From Roseibium aquae (GTDB lineage: Bacteria; Pseudomonadota; Alphaproteobacteria; Rhizobiales; Stappiaceae), in contig NZ_VXDC01000001.1 of NCBI RefSeq assembly GCF_008711285.1, positions 124,001 through 188,000 on the forward strand: a DNA stretch of 64,000 bases, in the 5' to 3' direction. A program made the translations under genes and the position numbers. The notes under the pieces were generated by a model. The model was not told where the DNA came from. It did no database searches and saw only the letters and a program-made list of their open reading frames with translations. Positions 2,611 to 39,881 of this stretch are shown piece by piece (the stretch's first letter is position 1; every line of letters starts with the position of its first letter).

Positions 2611-3543
2611 ATGCGTGTCGGTCTTTTCGCTTCTATGGCCGGTCATTCGGCCATCATCGTCTGGGGGCTTTTGGCGCTTCCCGATGCTGGGAGCTTTCCG
2701 ACACCGTCTGTCGAAACACTGCCCGTGGAACTCGTATCGGTTTCCGAGTTTACGCAGTTGCAGCTTGGGGAGCGCGACGCGGACCAAGTCCGCGATGTTT
2801 CGGCTCTTGCCCCCACCGAGACGCCGGCCGAGGAAGTGCCCGCACCCGTGGAGCGCCCCGCAGAGCCACGGCAGGTCCAGCCAACCCCGCCAGCTCCAAC
2901 ACCGCCAGCCCCGACACCACCTGAGCCGACCCCGCCGGCCCCGACGCTGGAAACGGAACCCGAACCGGTCCCGGACGCCGCTGCGGAGGCTGGCCCTGCT
3001 CCCGAAGCAGCCCCCGTTTCCGAACCGGTGCCAGCAGCCGATCCGGCCCCGCAACCGATCGTGACTACTGCGCGCCCGCGCACCAAACCCGCTCCACCCC
3101 GGCCGACCCGGCAGGAGCAGGATTTCAATTCCAACCAGATCGCAGCACTGTTGAACAAGGTTGAGCCGTCGGGCGGGACGACATCGAACACGGATCAGCC
3201 GGCCTCGTTGGGAACCCGATCGGGACGGGAAAACATCCGGATGACCCAGTCGGAGCTCGATGCCTTGCGAAGTCAGGTGTCGGCATGCTGGAACCCGCCG
3301 GTCGGGGCCGCCGGCGCCGAGGATCTGAGTGTCCGCGTGCGGTTCAATCTGTCTCAATCGGGCGAGGTATCCGGTGGGCCGGAAGTCTTGAACTCCAGCA
3401 CCAATCCGGCCTTCCAGGCCGCGGCCAGCAGCGCGGTGCGGGCCGTTATGCGTTGTGCTCCTTACTCGTTGCCGATCGCGAAGTATGATGATTGGCAAGA
3501 AGTTATTCTCAATTTCGACCCCAGAGAACTTTTGGGTGGTTAA
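2611..3543 (+). CDS. tolA: TolA-like energy transducer with a proline-rich spacer
   Basis: TolA links the TolQR motor to TolB-Pal at the outer membrane. The 310-residue protein has an N-terminal membrane helix (about residues 4-24, with a His and Ser as in TolA/TonB). A Pro/Ala/Glu-rich spacer follows (about 70-150, with repeated TPPAP units). The C-terminal domain, from about 215, has a TolA/TonB-like fold pattern ([24 protein letters not shown]) and two Cys that could form a disulfide. E. coli TolA instead uses a long Ala/Lys-rich helix as spacer. Position between tolR and tolB supports TolA over TonB. The tolB frame begins within or just after its 3' end. Confidence 0.88.
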
Positions 3544-3574
3544 AATGTCAAAAAATCAAGGACATGGAGCTTAT

Positions 3575-4924
3575 ATGCTTGCATTTTCCCCCGCTTGGGA
3601 CATGGCCCGCACGCTGAAGGCGGCTTTTGCCATCGTTCTTGGTTTCGCCTGCCTCGTTCTGATCAGTCAGCCGGCTCGAGCCTTGATCGAGCTCGACATT
3701 ACCCAAGGCAACATCGAGCCGCTTCCCATCGCGCTGCCGGATTTCGCAGCGGGCGGCGGAGATCCGAAACTGGCCTCCGACATGACCTCGGTCATTGCCG
3801 ACAATCTCCGGCGTTCGGGATTGTTCCGGCCACTGGATCCGGCCGCATTCATCCAGAAGAACATGGGCGTCGACACCACCCCGCGTTTCGGCGACTGGCG
3901 GACCATCGGCGCGCAGGCGCTGGTCAGCGGTACGGTTTCCCGCCAGCCCGATGGACGGCTGCGGGCCGAGTTCCGCCTTTGGGATGTGTTTGCCGCCGAG
4001 CAAATGCTTGGCCAGCAATTCTATACGACCCCGGAAAACTGGCGCAGGCTTGCCCATATCATTTCGGATGCGATCTATGAGCGCCTGACCGGAGAAAAGG
4101 GATATTTCGACACGCGGATCGTGTTCGTGGACGAAACAGGCCCCAAGGACGCCAGGGTCAAACGCCTTGCGATCATGGATCAGGACGGGGCCAACGTCCG
4201 CTATCTGACCCGTGGGGATGAACTCGTTCTTACACCGCGGTTCTCCCCGACCAGCCAGGAAATCACCTACATGTCCTATGCGGGCACGGACCCAAGCGTC
4301 TACTTGCTCAACATTGAGACGGGGCAACGCGAGATCGTGGGCAACTTTCCGGGAATGACTTTCGCTCCGCGCTTTTCCCCGGACGGTCAGAGCGTGATCA
4401 TGAGCCTGCAGCAGGGCGGCAATGCGAACATCTTCAAAATGGATTTGCGGTCGCGCCGGACGACCCGTTTGTCCAATTCGGCGGCGATCGACACGAGCCC
4501 GTCCTATTCGCCGGATGGCCAGCGTATCGTGTTCGAATCCGACAGAGGCGGCTCCCAGCAACTCTATGTCATGAGCGCCAACGGCCAAAATCCGCAGCGT
4601 ATTTCGTTCGGCCCAGGGCGCTATTCGACACCGGTCTGGTCACCTCGCGGAGATTTGATCGCGTTCACCAAAATGCACCAGGGGCGGTTCATGATCGGCG
4701 TGATGAAGCCTGACGGCAGTGGAGAACGCATCTTGACCGAAGGTTATCACAATGAGGGGCCGGCTTGGTCACCAAATGGCCGTGTTTTGGTGTTCTTCCG
4801 CGATACCCCTGGTGCGAATGGCGGACCGCAAGTTTGGACCGTGGACCTGACCGGCTACAATGAACAACGGCTTGGAACACCGGCCTTCGCGTCTGATCCA
4901 TCGTGGTCTCCGTTGCTCGACTAG
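3575..4924 (+). CDS. tolB: Tol-Pal system periplasmic protein TolB
   Basis: TolB is the periplasmic partner of Pal and TolA. The protein has a signal peptide ending in ISQPARA, an N-terminal domain starting [18 protein letters not shown], and a C-terminal beta-propeller with repeated PD40 blades (FSPDGQ, YSPDGQ, WSPRGD, WSPNGR). Length from 3575 is 449 residues. Several in-frame starts exist (3455, 3545, 3575, 3602). GGAG at 3566-3569 favours 3575, whereas 3602 would give the most typical signal peptide, so the exact start is uncertain. It lies 31 nt after tolA in the same operon. Confidence 0.95.
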
Positions 4925-5073
4925 CAGGCTGGCAATCCCGAATCCTAAACGGGGTCGGTAGGGTTTCGTTTACCATGTTTGCCAATCGCGCCTTAACCCT
5001 CTTTGGATACAAGCTGTTCACCATGCGCTCGGGTGGGCATGTCCGGCAAAGGCCGGGTAGTAGGAGTTGATAG

Positions 5074-5559
5074 ATGTTGGTTGTGAACAAAATCGCGCAA
5101 GGCGCGCGGTTTGCGGGTGTGGTCGCGGTCATGATGTTTCTGGCCGCCTGCGCCCAAACCAAACCGGACCTGGCGAGCGGCACTGCGGCGCCGGGCACGG
5201 GACAGGACTTTGTCGTCAATGTCGGAGACCGGGTGTTTTTCCTTGAGGATCAGTCGACATTGACTGCGCAAGCGAGGGCAACGCTGGACAAGCAGGCGCA
5301 GTGGCTGAACCGGTACTCAAGCTACACGGTTACGGTCGAGGGCCACGCGGACGAGCGAGGAACACGCCAGTACAACCTTGCTCTCGGTGCCCGCAGGGCG
5401 AACGCCGCCCGGGATTATCTGGTCGCAAATGGTGTTCCGGCTGCGCGCATCAAGACGATTTCATACGGCAAGGAACGGCCGGTCGCTGTTTGCAACAATG
5501 ACAGCTGCTGGTCGCAAAACCGCCGGGCAGTCACGGTCTTGAACAACGCGACCAACTAA
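5074..5559 (+). CDS. pal: Peptidoglycan-associated lipoprotein Pal
   Basis: Pal is an outer-membrane lipoprotein whose OmpA-like domain binds the diaminopimelate of peptidoglycan. The 161-residue precursor has a lipobox FLAAC with Cys26 as the lipidated residue. The OmpA-family motif GHADERGTRQYNLALGARRA carries the conserved Asp and Arg that contact peptidoglycan. TAGGAG lies 7 nt before the ATG. The 149-nt gap after tolB has no terminator and may hold an additional promoter, since Pal is usually needed in excess over the other Tol proteins; no convincing -35/-10 pair could be fixed. A strong terminator follows. Confidence 0.96.
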   Translation: MLVVNKIAQGARFAGVVAVMMFLAACAQTKPDLASGTAAPGTGQDFVVNVGDRVFFLEDQSTLTAQARATLDKQAQWLNRYSSYTVTVEGHADERGTRQYNLALGARRANAARDYLVANGVPAARIKTISYGKERPVAVCNNDSCWSQNRRAVTVLNNATN

Positions 5560-26252: not shown

Positions 26253-27572
26253 TCATGCAACACCCATCTTTTTCGCCGGCTGGCTGGGAGAGGTTTGTTT
26301 GGTCTTGCGTTTTGGCGCTGCCGGGTCCGTTTTCTCACCTTTTTCCCTGGCCGAAACGCTCGCTGTCTGGTCTGCGGCTGAGCCGGTGACTGCACCCCGC
26401 TGGGCATTGACAACCCGGCGGACCAGATCTCTTGCCGCCGATGGGACGGGATGGGTGTCTGCCGGAACTTCGGCGGCCTTTTGACCCTGCTTGTTTGGAA
26501 CGTCCACCCCCTGTTCGGCACCGACCTGCCCCCGGCGGGGTGTCTTGGATTTGCCGGGTTTTGCGGTCCCTGCCATGTCCGAATTTTTGTTAGCCGTGCC
26601 CGCTTTCGCATTTGCCGAGGATTTGGATGCCAGGATGGCCTGGACGATTTCATGCAACTCTTTGCGCATGTCCGCGAGCAGCGGCTGGTTCAGGTCGCGC
26701 TGTAGTTGCTGAAGCTTGGTGCGCGCACGGGCGAGCGTCCTGTCCCGGTCGTGAAGCTCCGCTTTGAGACGCGCGCGATCGGCCTGAATGGCCCGCAGTT
26801 CATTGTCCGTGTGCTCGCTCTGGCCGGCGCGGGCCCCACTGGTAAAGTCCAGTTGCGCGGTCAGGCGGGTGACATCGCTCTGTGCGGATATGTACTTTGC
26901 TTCGCTGTCAATCAATTGGCGCTCTAGGTTGGCGATGATGGCGCGTTCGTTGCCTTGATCGAGTTCCGGACGAAGCAACACGCTGCTCGCAGCCCGAGTC
27001 TCCGCTTCGGCAAGCCGTGTCTTGAGGACCGCGATTTCCCTCTCCAGACTGGAAACCGTCGATGCAGCTGCCATGTCATCAGGTGGAAGCCAGCCGAGTT
27101 TCGCGTCGCGCTCGCGCCGCAAACCTTCCGCTTCATTGCGAACAGCGGCGAGCGTTCGCTCCATGCTTTCAATGCGCGCCTTTGCGGTTTCCAGGTCTTG
27201 TCGCACAGCCTTCGCGGCTTCGATCTTCGCATTCGCGACATCAAGTTCCGTCCGGAGGGACACCAAGTCTGCGGCGTGGGCCTCTTGCAGATTGACGAGC
27301 TGAGCCTGCAATTCGCCCGACTGCCTCTTCTGCGCAGTCAGTGCGTCGCGCTCTGTTTCAAGCCGCCGCTCGAGCCGTCTGAATTCGACCGCGTGCCGCG
27401 CCAGGGCCTGGTCCTGGGCGGCGCGGACTTCCGCGTAGGTGGACGGATTGGTTGCATCTATCGCTTCTTTGGTGAGCCGGACAGCGCGTTTATAGAAAGC
27501 GGGAAAGACCGCAAGACTCAGCAGACCTGATACGCAGAATCCCAACACGATGTACATCGCTGCTTCGATCAA
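26253..27572 (-). CDS. Membrane-anchored coiled-coil protein of unknown function
   Basis: The 439-residue protein has one N-terminal membrane helix (about residues 6-26, MYIVLGFCVSGLLSLAVFPA). A long, highly charged coiled-coil region follows, at about 50-310 (for example RRLERRLETERDALTAQKRQ and RARLKAELHDRDRTLARARTK). The C-terminal tail of about 125 residues is Lys/Pro/Ala-rich, low-complexity and basic. GGGGAG lies 7 nt before the TTG at 27572; an ATG five codons later is the alternative start. I do not recognise the function. Domain order suggests a cytoplasmic scaffold anchored at the inner membrane. It lies downstream of eipA on the same strand. Confidence 0.75.
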   Translation of the reverse strand: MIEAAMYIVLGFCVSGLLSLAVFPAFYKRAVRLTKEAIDATNPSTYAEVRAAQDQALARHAVEFRRLERRLETERDALTAQKRQSGELQAQLVNLQEAHAADLVSLRTELDVANAKIEAAKAVRQDLETAKARIESMERTLAAVRNEAEGLRRERDAKLGWLPPDDMAAASTVSSLEREIAVLKTRLAEAETRAASSVLLRPELDQGNERAIIANLERQLIDSEAKYISAQSDVTRLTAQLDFTSGARAGQSEHTDNELRAIQADRARLKAELHDRDRTLARARTKLQQLQRDLNQPLLADMRKELHEIVQAILASKSSANAKAGTANKNSDMAGTAKPGKSKTPRRGQVGAEQGVDVPNKQGQKAAEVPADTHPVPSAARDLVRRVVNAQRGAVTGSAADQTASVSAREKGEKTDPAAPKRKTKQTSPSQPAKKMGVA

Positions 27573-27664
27573 GGCCGACTCCCCAAAGCTGGCATCAAGC
27601 TTCTCCGGCTATCAATAGCTCAGCGGGCCGGTAGCGCCAAGTGTCCCGTTTGCGCTGCGTCATG

Positions 27665-28249
27665 TCAAAACGGGTTCCACGTCGGCTCAGCCGTAAACTT
27701 CAGATAACCGACATTCACGCCAAGGCGCGCGCCCACGCCCGCCCGGACAGGAACCACATATGTGTTGTGATTGCTCAACACAGTCATGCCGACACCGCCA
27801 ACAAGATATGCCGACCCGTTCACACCCAGGTACCGCTGGTACATTGAATCGACGGAAGGGAGATTGTAGATCAGCATCATCACGCGCGCGCCATCGCCGC
27901 CAAAATCCCAGCCGACCGATGGACCTTGCCAGAACACCTTGTGGGTACCCGCGTTCCGGGTGTAGAGCGTGCCCTCTCCGTACCGTGCGCCTGCGACAAA
28001 AGCCCCCGCGCCTTCCTCTCCCAGTATATAGCCATTGGGTTCACCATAGCTGCTGAATGCCCGCTCGACGACGGAGGCCAGGCCGCCGGATACCGTCCCG
28101 AAGAACTTGTGCCCGGCCACGACGACTTCGTCCTCGCTGTAGGTATCGGGTTGCGCGGTGGTCTGAGCCAAGGCGGCCGGAAGTCCCGCAAGCGCAAGAC
28201 CCATGAGGCCGAAAGCGATGTTTAGTATCGTTTTCCGCAAAACCGTCAT
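27665..28249 (-). CDS. eipA: Envelope integrity protein EipA (DUF1134)
   Basis: EipA is a small periplasmic protein of alphaproteobacteria shown in Brucella to be needed for envelope integrity and virulence. The 194-residue precursor has a signal peptide ending in AALAQ. The family core reads VVVAGHKFFGTVSGGLASVVERAF, YGEPNGYILGEE, SVGWDFGGDGARVMMLIYNL and VPVRAGVGARLGVNVGYLKF. In Brucella the gene is reported to be under CtrA control. Here its upstream region has no TTAA-N7-TTAA site but does contain a 10-bp inverted repeat shared with the divergent gene. Confidence 0.92.
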   Translation of the reverse strand: MTVLRKTILNIAFGLMGLALAGLPAALAQTTAQPDTYSEDEVVVAGHKFFGTVSGGLASVVERAFSSYGEPNGYILGEEGAGAFVAGARYGEGTLYTRNAGTHKVFWQGPSVGWDFGGDGARVMMLIYNLPSVDSMYQRYLGVNGSAYLVGGVGMTVLSNHNTYVVPVRAGVGARLGVNVGYLKFTAEPTWNPF

Positions 28250-37053: not shown

Positions 37054-37746
37054 TCAGGCCGCGACCTCGATATCGGGCTCGCGAAGCACATAGCCTCGGC
37101 CCCACACGGTTTCGATGTAGTTCTTGCCCGACGTTGCGGCCGCCAGTTTCTTGCGCAGCTTGCAGATGAACACGTCGATGATCTTCAGTTCCGGCTCGTC
37201 CATACCGCCATAAAGATGGTTCAGGAACATCTCCTTGGTCAGGGTTGTTCCCTTGCGCAGGGAAAGCAGCTCCAGCATCTGGTATTCCTTACCGGTCAGA
37301 TGCACGCGCTGGCCGCCAACCTCGACGGTTTTCGTGTCCAGGTTCACCTTCAGGTCGCCGGTCACAATCACGGACTGGGCGTGTCCCTTGGATCTGCGGA
37401 CAATCGCGTGGATGCGGGCGACGAGTTCATCCTTGTGGAAGGGCTTCGTCATGTAGTCGTCAGCGCCAAACCCCAGGCCGCGAACCTTGTCCTCAATTCC
37501 AGCGTTGCCGGACAGGATGAGGATTGGCGTTTTAACCTTGGATACGCGCAGCGTCCGCAAGACCTCATAGCCGGACATGTCCGGCAGATTGAGGTCCAGC
37601 ATAATTATGTCGTAATCATACAATTTACCGAGGTCGATACCTTCCTCGCCGAGATCCGTCGTGTAGACATTAAAGTTCTCGGATTTGAGCATCAGTTCGA
37701 TGCTTTGCGCTGTTGCGCCATCGTCCTCAATCAACAAGACACGCAT
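37054..37746 (-). CDS. ctrA: Cell-cycle master response regulator CtrA
   Basis: CtrA controls division, motility and polarity genes and can silence the replication origin in alphaproteobacteria. The 230-residue protein begins [20 protein letters not shown], has the phospho-acceptor Asp51 in [17 protein letters not shown] and [22 protein letters not shown]. Its OmpR-type DNA-binding domain includes [19 protein letters not shown] and [19 protein letters not shown]. The C-terminus ends in a hydrophobic Ala-Ala pair, the proteolysis signal used by ClpXP. A TTAACCAT half-site in its promoter region suggests autoregulation. The frame extends upstream, but MRVLLIEDD is the conserved start. Confidence 0.97.
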
Positions 37747-38119
37747 GCCAATCCCCTTATGTTGCCTTTCCTGGGCAAGTCGCAACGGCTGTGTCGGCGC
37801 CTGCTACGAAGGACTGCGATTAACCCCGACTCATGCTTAGAGCCTTATGGTTAACAAAATCTCATTCCCACCGGCAAGCTTGGCCGCAATGATTCTGTGC
37901 ACAAAGGCTAAAGGCTTGACTTCCCGAAAAAAAACCGGGGATGGGCCAGTTAAACCTTTTGTTTAAGAAACCGGCTTAGCCGACTCTCACAGGACTCATA
38001 TTCGCAAAGCCGTTAGGACTCGTAACTGGAGCTCGCCTGACGACGTTCTGTTCATTAAGATTAAGCAGAGACGTAAACGATCCGTTACCAAAACCGTTAA
38101 CAGGCGGAAGGAATCGACA
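37747..38119. promoter_or_regulatory. ctrA / fliI divergent regulatory region with five GANTC sites
   Basis: GANTC methylation sites occur at 37828 (GACTC), 37891 (GATTC), 37982, 37993 and 38017 (all GACTC). One site per 256 bp is expected by chance. TTAA tetramers are frequent between 37820 and 38100. No gene fits in this 373-nt gap. Confidence 0.65.
37847..37854 (-). promoter_or_regulatory. CtrA half-site TTAACCAT upstream of ctrA
   Basis: Read on the minus strand the sequence is GTTAACCATAAGG, an exact TTAACCAT half-site about 100 nt before the ctrA start codon. No second TTAA sits at the 7-nt spacing, so binding would be to a half-site or to a degenerate partner. Confidence 0.45.
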
Positions 38120-39445
38120 TTGAAGCCGCTTTTTGCCGAAATCGATTCGCTGATGGGCACCGAAATCTACGGACGGGTGGTGGCGGTGCAGGGTCTTCTG
38201 GTTGAGGTGGCGGGGCCTTTGCACGAAATGAGTGTCGGGGCCAGGCTCCTGATCGACAGTGGGGAAGAGCGGCCGCCGGTTTCGGCGGAAGTGGTTGGTT
38301 TTCGCGATGATCACGCCCTTTGCATGCCATTTGCCGGGCTTGAGGGGGTCCGGATGGGGTGCCGGGCGATCATCAGCGCGCGTGAAAGCAGCGTGCATCC
38401 GGCCCATTCCTGGCTCGGCCGTGTCGTCAACGCAATGGGTGAGCCCATCGATGGCAAGGGCGATCTGCCCAACGGCGAAACGCCACGTTTCTTGCGCAGC
38501 GCGCCACCGCCCGCCTCCCAAAGAGCGCGCGTTGGCGCACCGCTCGACCTGGGCGTCCGGGCCCTCAACACTTTTGTGACCTGTTGCGAAGGGCAGCGGA
38601 TGGGGATCTTCGCCGGATCCGGGGTGGGGAAATCGGTGCTCATGTCGATGCTGGCTCGCAATACGCAATGCGATGTGGCTGTAATAGGCTTAATTGGTGA
38701 ACGCGGCCGGGAGGTGCAGGAATTCATCGAGGATGATCTGGGGGACACCGGACTTGCGCGTTCGGTTGTGGTTGTCGCGACATCCGACGAAAGCGTCTTG
38801 ATGCGCCGCCAGGCGGCCTACCTCACGATGACTGTGGCCGAACATTTTCGAGATGAGGGGGCGAACGTCCTGTGCATGATGGATTCGGTGACACGGTTTG
38901 CGATGGCGCAACGTGAGATCGGCCTGTCAATCGGCGAGCCTCCGACTTCGAAAGGTTACACGCCGACGGTCTTCACCGAACTGCCGCGCCTTTTGGAGCG
39001 CGCCGGACCGGGCAAAGTGGGAACGGGGTCCATTACCGGGCTGTTCACCGTCCTCGTGGAGGGCGACAATCACAATGAACCCGTCGCGGATGCCGTCCGT
39101 GGCATTCTGGACGGTCACGTCGTCATGGAGCGCGGCATTGCCGAACGGGGGCGATACCCTGCCATCAATGTGCTAAAGTCTATTTCCCGGACCATGCCGC
39201 GCTGTGTGCCAAGTGAGCACCTGCCGGTACTTCGGCGGGCCAAGCAATTGCTGTCAACCTATACGGATATGGAAGAACTCATTCGTTTGGGAGCCTATCG
39301 GAAGGGGTCGGACCCGATGGTCGACGAGGCGATCGCGAAATTCGGGAAAATCGACGATTTCTTGAATCAGCAAAAAGACGAGTGCACGTCGTTAGCCGAA
39401 GGATATCGTCAGCTTGCCAACCTTTTGGAAATGACTCCGGGCTAA
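38120..39445 (+). CDS. fliI: Flagellar export ATPase FliI
   Basis: FliI is the ATPase of the flagellar type III export apparatus. The 441-residue protein has an F1-beta-like core with the Walker A motif [11 protein letters not shown] near residue 166, the export-ATPase signature [19 protein letters not shown], Walker [22 protein letters not shown] and [23 protein letters not shown] (in parts). The start is a TTG at 38120, preceded by GGAAGGAA, and no ATG is available at a suitable distance. It is divergent from ctrA and begins a fliI-fliJ unit. Confidence 0.94.
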
Positions 39446-39473: not shown

Positions 39474-39881
39474 ATGAAAACCCGAGACAGTCTGATCCGG
39501 TTGAAGCGGTTTCAGGTCGACGACAAGCGGCGGCAACTCGCTCAAATCGAGGCCATGATTGCTGAATTCAATCGAATGGCTGATGAGCTGGACGACCAGA
39601 TCAAGTCGGAACAAGAGCGTGTTGGGATCACGGATGTGACCCATTTCGCCTACCCAACCTTTGCCAAAGCCGCTGCGACCCGCCGCGACAACTTGCGCAA
39701 TTCAGCCAGCGAGCTCGACGAACAGCTTCAGCGCGCTCAGGATGAACTGGCGGAAGCAATTGAAGAATTGAAAAAGTTCGAGCAGCTTGAAGAGCGGGAT
39801 CAGCAACGTGAACGCTTGAGCGCCGAGGCGGCCGAACAAGAGCAACTCGACGAAATCGCAAGCCGGTATCGCGCCCGCTGA
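39474..39881 (+). CDS. fliJ: Flagellar export protein FliJ
   Basis: FliJ is the coiled-coil stalk-like partner of FliI and an escort for export chaperones. The 135-residue protein is almost entirely charged helix (LIRLKRFQVDDKRRQLAQIEAMIAEF at the start, then QLQRAQDELAEAIEELKKFEQLEERDQQR in parts). This matches the FliJ pattern although primary sequence is poorly conserved in the family. GGGGAG at 39459-39464 fits the ATG at 39474; a GTG one codon earlier is the alternative start. It follows fliI by 28 nt, which is the main support for the name. Confidence 0.85.
   Translation: MKTRDSLIRLKRFQVDDKRRQLAQIEAMIAEFNRMADELDDQIKSEQERVGITDVTHFAYPTFAKAAATRRDNLRNSASELDEQLQRAQDELAEAIEELKKFEQLEERDQQRERLSAEAAEQEQLDEIASRYRAR

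Follow-up and report, generated by a model that had tools for sequence, protein, structure and literature searches.

A Conserved Tandem Pair of GANTC Sites Upstream of ctrA in Roseibium, Probably Part of a P1-like Promoter

The closest described counterpart of the locus analyzed here is the ctrA promoter P1 of Caulobacter crescentus, which carries one GANTC site (PMC3667746). According to the literature, GcrA recruits RNA polymerase and binds DNA in dependence on its methylation; binding of the GcrA proteins of S. meliloti and B. abortus to a probe of ctrA P1 from C. crescentus likewise depends on methylation (PMC3667746). In B. abortus, GANTC is enriched 4.4- to 4.7-fold in GcrA ChIP peaks (PMC6813329), and in Caulobacter, promoters whose GANTC lies between −35 and −10 are active at 40–60 min (PMC4287350). 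Comparable arrangements exist at other genes: The C. crescentus mipZ and ftsZ promoters share with our locus a GANTC (as conserved CGACTC) at fixed promoter positions (PMC3708114) and mipZ even has two juxtaposed GANTC (PMC3667746), but both the genes and the order are different. The gcrA promoter of Agrobacterium tumefaciens, which belongs to the same order and likewise to a cell-cycle regulator, contains 6 GANTC in 250 bp; it differs in the gene concerned and in that full methylation is proposed to repress it, and the available part of this source describes no conserved tandem pair (PMC11514494). For ctrA of S. meliloti, CtrA boxes and two starts, P1 and P2, have been published in two papers that make no mention of GANTC at ctrA (PMC4433202, PMC3616915); autoregulation there was found to be weak, from which an action of other factors was concluded (PMC4433202). 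Of the surveys across the class, one reports as many as five or six GANTC per 300 bp at ctrA in Sphingomonadales and Caulobacterales and any GANTC in only 50% of Rhizobiales (PMC8116508), and another, using a window from −200 to +100, places ctrA under GcrA control in the first two of these orders only (PMC7987155). According to Brilli et al., methylation control is not derivable from GANTC counts and the link from GcrA to ctrA is not general (PMC2877005).

In the window, by which we mean the whole 64,000-nt stretch of DNA that was analyzed, ctrA (37054–37746, minus strand) encodes an OmpR-type response regulator of 230 aa (Pfam Response_reg and Trans_reg_C), which is 97–100% identical among 37 Roseibium-group genomes. 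It faces away from fliI (38120–39445, plus strand; Pfam ATP-synt_ab and T3SS_ATPase_C), the TTG-initiated gene of the flagellar export ATPase, downstream of which lies fliJ (39474–39881; Pfam FliJ). The divergent arrangement is found in 37/37 Roseibium genomes, with a gap of 370–375 bp that holds 4–9 GANTC. The ccrM gene on which the original prediction of methylation-coupled control depended is present: Its product of 385 aa combines PF01555 with a RAMA domain, the single RAMA match in the genome, and carries the catalytic DPPY (DPPYNLQL). GcrA is encoded as well (PF07750, E = 2.4e-55), and so are MucR and SciP.

All five GANTC starts reported for the gap (37828, 37891, 37982, 37993, and 38017, a span of 194 bp) were verified. 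The list is incomplete, as GANTC also occurs at 38111 in the gap and at 38144, 25 bp into fliI, which brings the region to 7 GANTC in 321 bp. Across the window, 92 GANTC were observed compared with 316 in dinucleotide shuffles; the sites are thus avoided in this genome, as is already known for Alphaproteobacteria with CcrM (PMC3973325). If 92 positions are placed at random, at least five GANTC fall within some 200-bp stretch of the window with P = 0.016, and at least seven within some 330-bp stretch with P = 0.001. The gap itself is richer in A+T than the window, and with its own dinucleotides 1.1 GANTC are expected where 6 are seen (P = 0.001). An 864-kb sample, about 20% of the genome, served as genome background: Just three windows in it have at least five GANTC per 200 bp, one of them being the ctrA–fliI gap. 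The other two (C12:373136–373333 and C12:374963–375113) both lie beside an integrase (tyrosine-recombinase) gene, and no sampled window outside the integrase element equals the ctrA–fliI cluster. Such clusters are hence rare rather than common in the sampled portion, so that the refuting condition set for the original prediction came out in favor of the cluster there, and the methylation-site cluster between ctrA and fliI is confirmed as real.

The dense GANTC windows at C12 373.1–375.1 kb with their repeated GAATCCTT are probably element DNA. They belong to a probable integrative element of ∼21 kb (C12:373136–394238; L075, about 3137–5113, and L076:4162–4238), which comprises a tyrosine integrase with an arm-binding domain (L075:3261–4817), a copy of a tRNA-Met 3′ end on one side, an intact tRNA-Met on the other, and the GANTC-bearing repeats GAATCCTT and GAGTCGGTAC, which may be integrase arm sites. 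Within the window, a further three GANTC lie in 67 bp (27515–27581) where a minus-strand ORF (26253–27572) begins, near an EipA/DUF1134-like gene (27665–28249).

The individual sites differ considerably in their conservation within Roseibium. The ctrA-proximal GANTC (37828–37832) is found in 33/37 genomes, the one at 37891–37895 is weakly conserved (13/37), and the one at 38017–38021 is lineage-specific (3/37); toward fliI, GANTC covers the ribosome-binding region (38111–38115) in 17/37 genomes and lies within the fliI start region (38144–38148) in all 37. The two central sites form a pair on the minus strand: site 1, distal to ctrA (37993–37997), is present in 37/37 genomes and part of an order-wide signature, and site 2, proximal to ctrA (37982–37986), is present in 36/37, its N column being variable (19/37). 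By these counts, two sites of the original five resemble recent accidents, and the other three are old. The starts of the pair are 11 bp apart, and in the alignment of the 37 genomes both sites keep their G, A, T, and C but not a constant N. Fixed outer bases and a free N occur together in no further palindromic pentamer of the gap in these genomes: GTNAC at 38084 is the sole other one with conserved outer bases, and its N is invariant. Four GANTC positions that are frequent in the relatives are missing from the window genome, namely 37863 (24/37), 37918 (31/37), 37938 (26/37), and 38068 (27/37). Many relatives (e.g., L007 and L012) keep an inverted repeat, TTGTTGAATC...GATTCACAA, that has GANTC in each arm and a loop rich in A, at the equivalents of 37918–37942; near 37918–37938 this repeat is degraded in the window genome.

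Beyond the genus, the pair can be followed through the order. We compiled 138 ctrA loci (80 named Hyphomicrobiales loci plus 58 further ones; 42 Roseibium and 96 non-Roseibium), of which 102 show, in roughly the same place, two GANTC with a spacing of 9 or 11 bp. A spacing of 11 was found at 41/42 Roseibium loci and a spacing of 9 at 61/96 non-Roseibium Hyphomicrobiales loci, against a simulated mean of 0.5 and maximum of 3, although related genomes are not independent and such counts overstate the number of events. Read in the ctrA sense, the element is GARTC-N4-GARTC-RSTTR, with an N6 spacer in Roseibium, and ends ∼205–245 bp before the ATG; the longer consensus is GARTC-N4/6-GARTC-RSTTR-N6-7-TTTCTTAAnGT-N6-TTAAG. 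It spans many families, with diverged flanks and spacers. The exact pattern GAGTCN4GARTCRSTTR has 92 matches in 150 genomes of the order compared with 8 for a reversed control pattern, and 38 of these matches, each in a different genome, sit 201–251 bp upstream of ctrA on the ctrA strand; this strict signature is thereby carried by 38 of about 140 ctrA-bearing genomes of the order. Loci in the Sinorhizobium group, related to the S. meliloti ctrA region discussed above, possess the same tandem pair (L178 of S. americanum; L176 and L180 of Ensifer); among those that have lost it are Pseudovibrio, Kaistia, and Microvirga. In other orders, where the comparison drew on 142 genomes from the class and was made by eye, the relaxed pattern had no match near ctrA in 87 ctrA-bearing genomes.

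GANTC is abundant at these loci in general: 78 of the 80 named Hyphomicrobiales ctrA loci have at least one within 300 bp, and none of the other pentamer types, 16 in all, reaches its mean of 3.7. The difference between 78/80 and the 50% of Rhizobiales in the published survey (PMC8116508) may be due to sampling or ortholog choice. On the ctrA strand N is nearly always a purine, a restriction that goes beyond what recognition by CcrM would account for. The count of GANTCN6GANTC in this genome is 7, versus 10 for the control; there is no genome-wide preference for 11 bp and the case for the pair consequently rests on conservation, not on count. Apart from ctrA, the tandem GARTC signature has 54 exact matches in genomes of the order (L183–L202). 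Some of them are intergenic, and an EipA-like gene (L187) and a serine acetyltransferase-like gene (L200) each have one match upstream. These matches possibly represent a wider promoter class; for 20 of them, the genes that follow were of mixed kinds, with some matches in coding sequence, and formed no coherent regulon.

The gap also contains more TTAA tetramers than expected (7 versus 2.3, P = 0.008), which bears on the additional CtrA layer that had been proposed for it. This part of the proposal is borne out by halves: TTAACCAT (37847–37854, minus strand) and the seven mostly conserved TTAA are there, but a TTAA-N7-TTAA CtrA box with up to 1 mismatch was not found in the gap. A CtrA layer on the ctrA–fliI gap is plausible from these sequences, and the TTAA tetramers could be CtrA half-sites. 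The proximal TTAA element upstream of ctrA, TTTTGTTAACCAT (37847–37859, minus strand), has its TTAA at 37851 in 37/37 genomes and holds the core TTTGTTAACCAT of the S. meliloti promoter “Motif 2” (PMC3616915); a further TTAA beside the proximal GANTC (37820–37823) is kept in 35/37. A scan for consensus sigma70 promoters returned none in the gap. The longer consensus continues downstream of the pair with TTTCTTAAnGT-N6-TTAAG, as expected of a promoter, and TTAA-N9-TTAA at 37950–37966 on the minus strand (37/37 and 31/37) is a candidate for the −10/start region of a distal ctrA promoter; possible alternative roles are half-sites of CtrA or of another factor. Between 37950 and 37982, downstream of the pair, the tetramers follow a 13-bp period (TTAR-N9-TTAA-N9-TTAA), whereas CtrA spacing would be 7 bp; their conservation holds for Roseibium and, in part, for the order.

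Taken as a whole, the cluster is probably a ctrA regulatory region with a P1-like promoter that is built on the tandem pair and read by CcrM and GcrA. Features of a P1-type promoter were found, namely CcrM, GcrA, and GANTC at ctrA conserved by selection; since a canonical CtrA box is lacking, we call the element P1-like and do not count it as a member of P1. The core of the cluster is the tandem CcrM-site element GARTC-N6-GARTC (37997–37982), which most of the Hyphomicrobiales sampled have as GARTC-N4-GARTC-RSTTR and which is followed here by a CTTAG-like motif and TTTCTTAA. CcrM would methylate both sites, GcrA would read their full or hemi-methylated state, and GcrA would then recruit sigma70 RNA polymerase to the promoter, where transcription would begin roughly 205 bp ahead of the ATG. 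In this arrangement site 2 would lie near −35 and the TAAnGT region near −10, and site 1, one helical turn upstream, would offer a second GcrA contact: A distance of 9 or 11 bp, approximately one helical turn, would place two GcrA units on one face of the DNA. Transcription of ctrA would thereby change once per cycle, when the replication fork runs through the gene. The proximal GANTC at 37828 beside TTAACCAT may mark a second, CtrA-influenced promoter, and the conserved TTAA tetramers may be contacts for CtrA or another factor.

With C. crescentus P1 the region shares the gene, a GANTC in the distal promoter, the presence of CcrM and GcrA, and a second promoter region near TTAA. It differs by having a fixed-spacing tandem pair plus further sites instead of one GANTC (PMC3667746), by its greater distance from the ATG, and by its order-specific flank consensus. 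Methylation-coupled control of ctrA, as originally predicted, fits the presence of ccrM, the rarity of such clusters in the sample, and the conservation of the core sites in the genus. Several of the results above count against our explanation, namely the lack of a sigma70 consensus promoter in the gap, the near restriction of N to purines, the presence of the strict signature in just a part of the order, and the loss of the pair from some of its members. So do two published observations: An unmethylatable ctrA promoter causes no abnormal phenotype in C. crescentus (PMC3973325), and the distal mapped ctrA start of S. meliloti has a 291-nt leader (PMC3616915), so that the pair there would be downstream of that start. 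The more far-reaching proposal that Hyphomicrobiales couple ctrA to fork passage via the order-specific tandem GARTC-N4/6-GARTC-RSTTR with paired same-face binding of GcrA is tentative, and we consider it possible rather than probable.

The strongest rival, though unlikely, is that GARTC-N4/6-GARTC is a direct repeat recognized by a transcription factor that has nothing to do with methylation, such as a response regulator binding direct repeats spaced by about one turn, with the overlap with CcrM sites being incidental or only modulatory. It would account for the purine at N on the ctrA strand and for the conserved flank RSTTR, and further regulators have been inferred for S. meliloti ctrA (PMC4433202). 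However, the four palindromic bases are kept at both sites while N and the spacer vary, additional GANTC accumulate in the same promoters (the mean of 3.7 in 300 bp), and the genome-wide avoidance of GANTC makes incidental sites unlikely.

Far less probable is the original prediction that one cluster gates both ctrA and the divergent fliI–fliJ unit through its methylation state. The sites do lie between divergent genes whose arrangement and gap length persist in all 37 genomes, and a GANTC at 38068 within a conserved fliI-proximal block occurs in 27 of them. But the pair stays with ctrA: It is found at 48/71 loci without an adjacent fliI and at 13/25 with one, the GANTC numbers per 330 bp are equal (3.46 and 3.48, respectively), and the element did not prove dependent on a divergent fliI neighbor. 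A reading of the pair as a fliI mark was rejected, as the pair persists at loci without fliI. Moreover, the fliI-proximal sites are variable, with 38068 absent from the window genome, 38017 in 3/37, and 38111 in 17/37. The role at ctrA is thus separable from a shared gate, and judged by these sequence comparisons the pair belongs to ctrA and is not a switch shared with fliI. The fliI-proximal block itself, TTAAGATTAAG...TAAA-N7-TTAC (38055–38088, plus strand), has TTAA at 38055 and 38061 in 37/37 genomes and a conserved TAAA-N7-TTAC at 38074–38088 with two departures from the CtrA-box consensus, which makes it a candidate CtrA-like site in the fliI promoter; fliI would then have its own TTAA-rich promoter block, which is not needed to explain the cluster.

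Marginally less probable still is that CtrA, MucR, or another protein shields the sites from CcrM, so that local hypomethylation would be a read-out and not a control. MucR and CtrA shield GANTC from CcrM in C. crescentus, as does MucR in S. meliloti (PMC5172544), conserved TTAA flank the sites, and a mucR gene is present; but the pair overlaps no canonical CtrA box, and the conserved spacing and position of two GANTC are not predicted by such occlusion. A functionless cluster due to chance or base composition, for which the A+T-rich gap and the poorly conserved 37891 and 38017 could be cited, is the least credible reading in view of the scan statistics, the sampled genome background, and the conservation across genera: Chance is refuted for 37982/37993 and unlikely for 37828, and it may hold for 37891 and 38017.

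None of the papers searched in open-access full text describes the tandem element; GANTC at ctrA is already known, but the order-specific tandem architecture of the P1-like region appears to be new. As the pair ends ∼205–245 bp upstream of the ATG, it lies outside the −200 to +100 window of the survey that limits GcrA control of ctrA to two other orders (PMC7987155). The pair bears on the timing of ctrA transcription in rhizobia, Brucella, and Agrobacterium relatives. If the more far-reaching proposal of paired GcrA binding is true, the tandem element would be a GcrA route to ctrA that is unlike the single-site P1 of C. crescentus and was missed by that survey.
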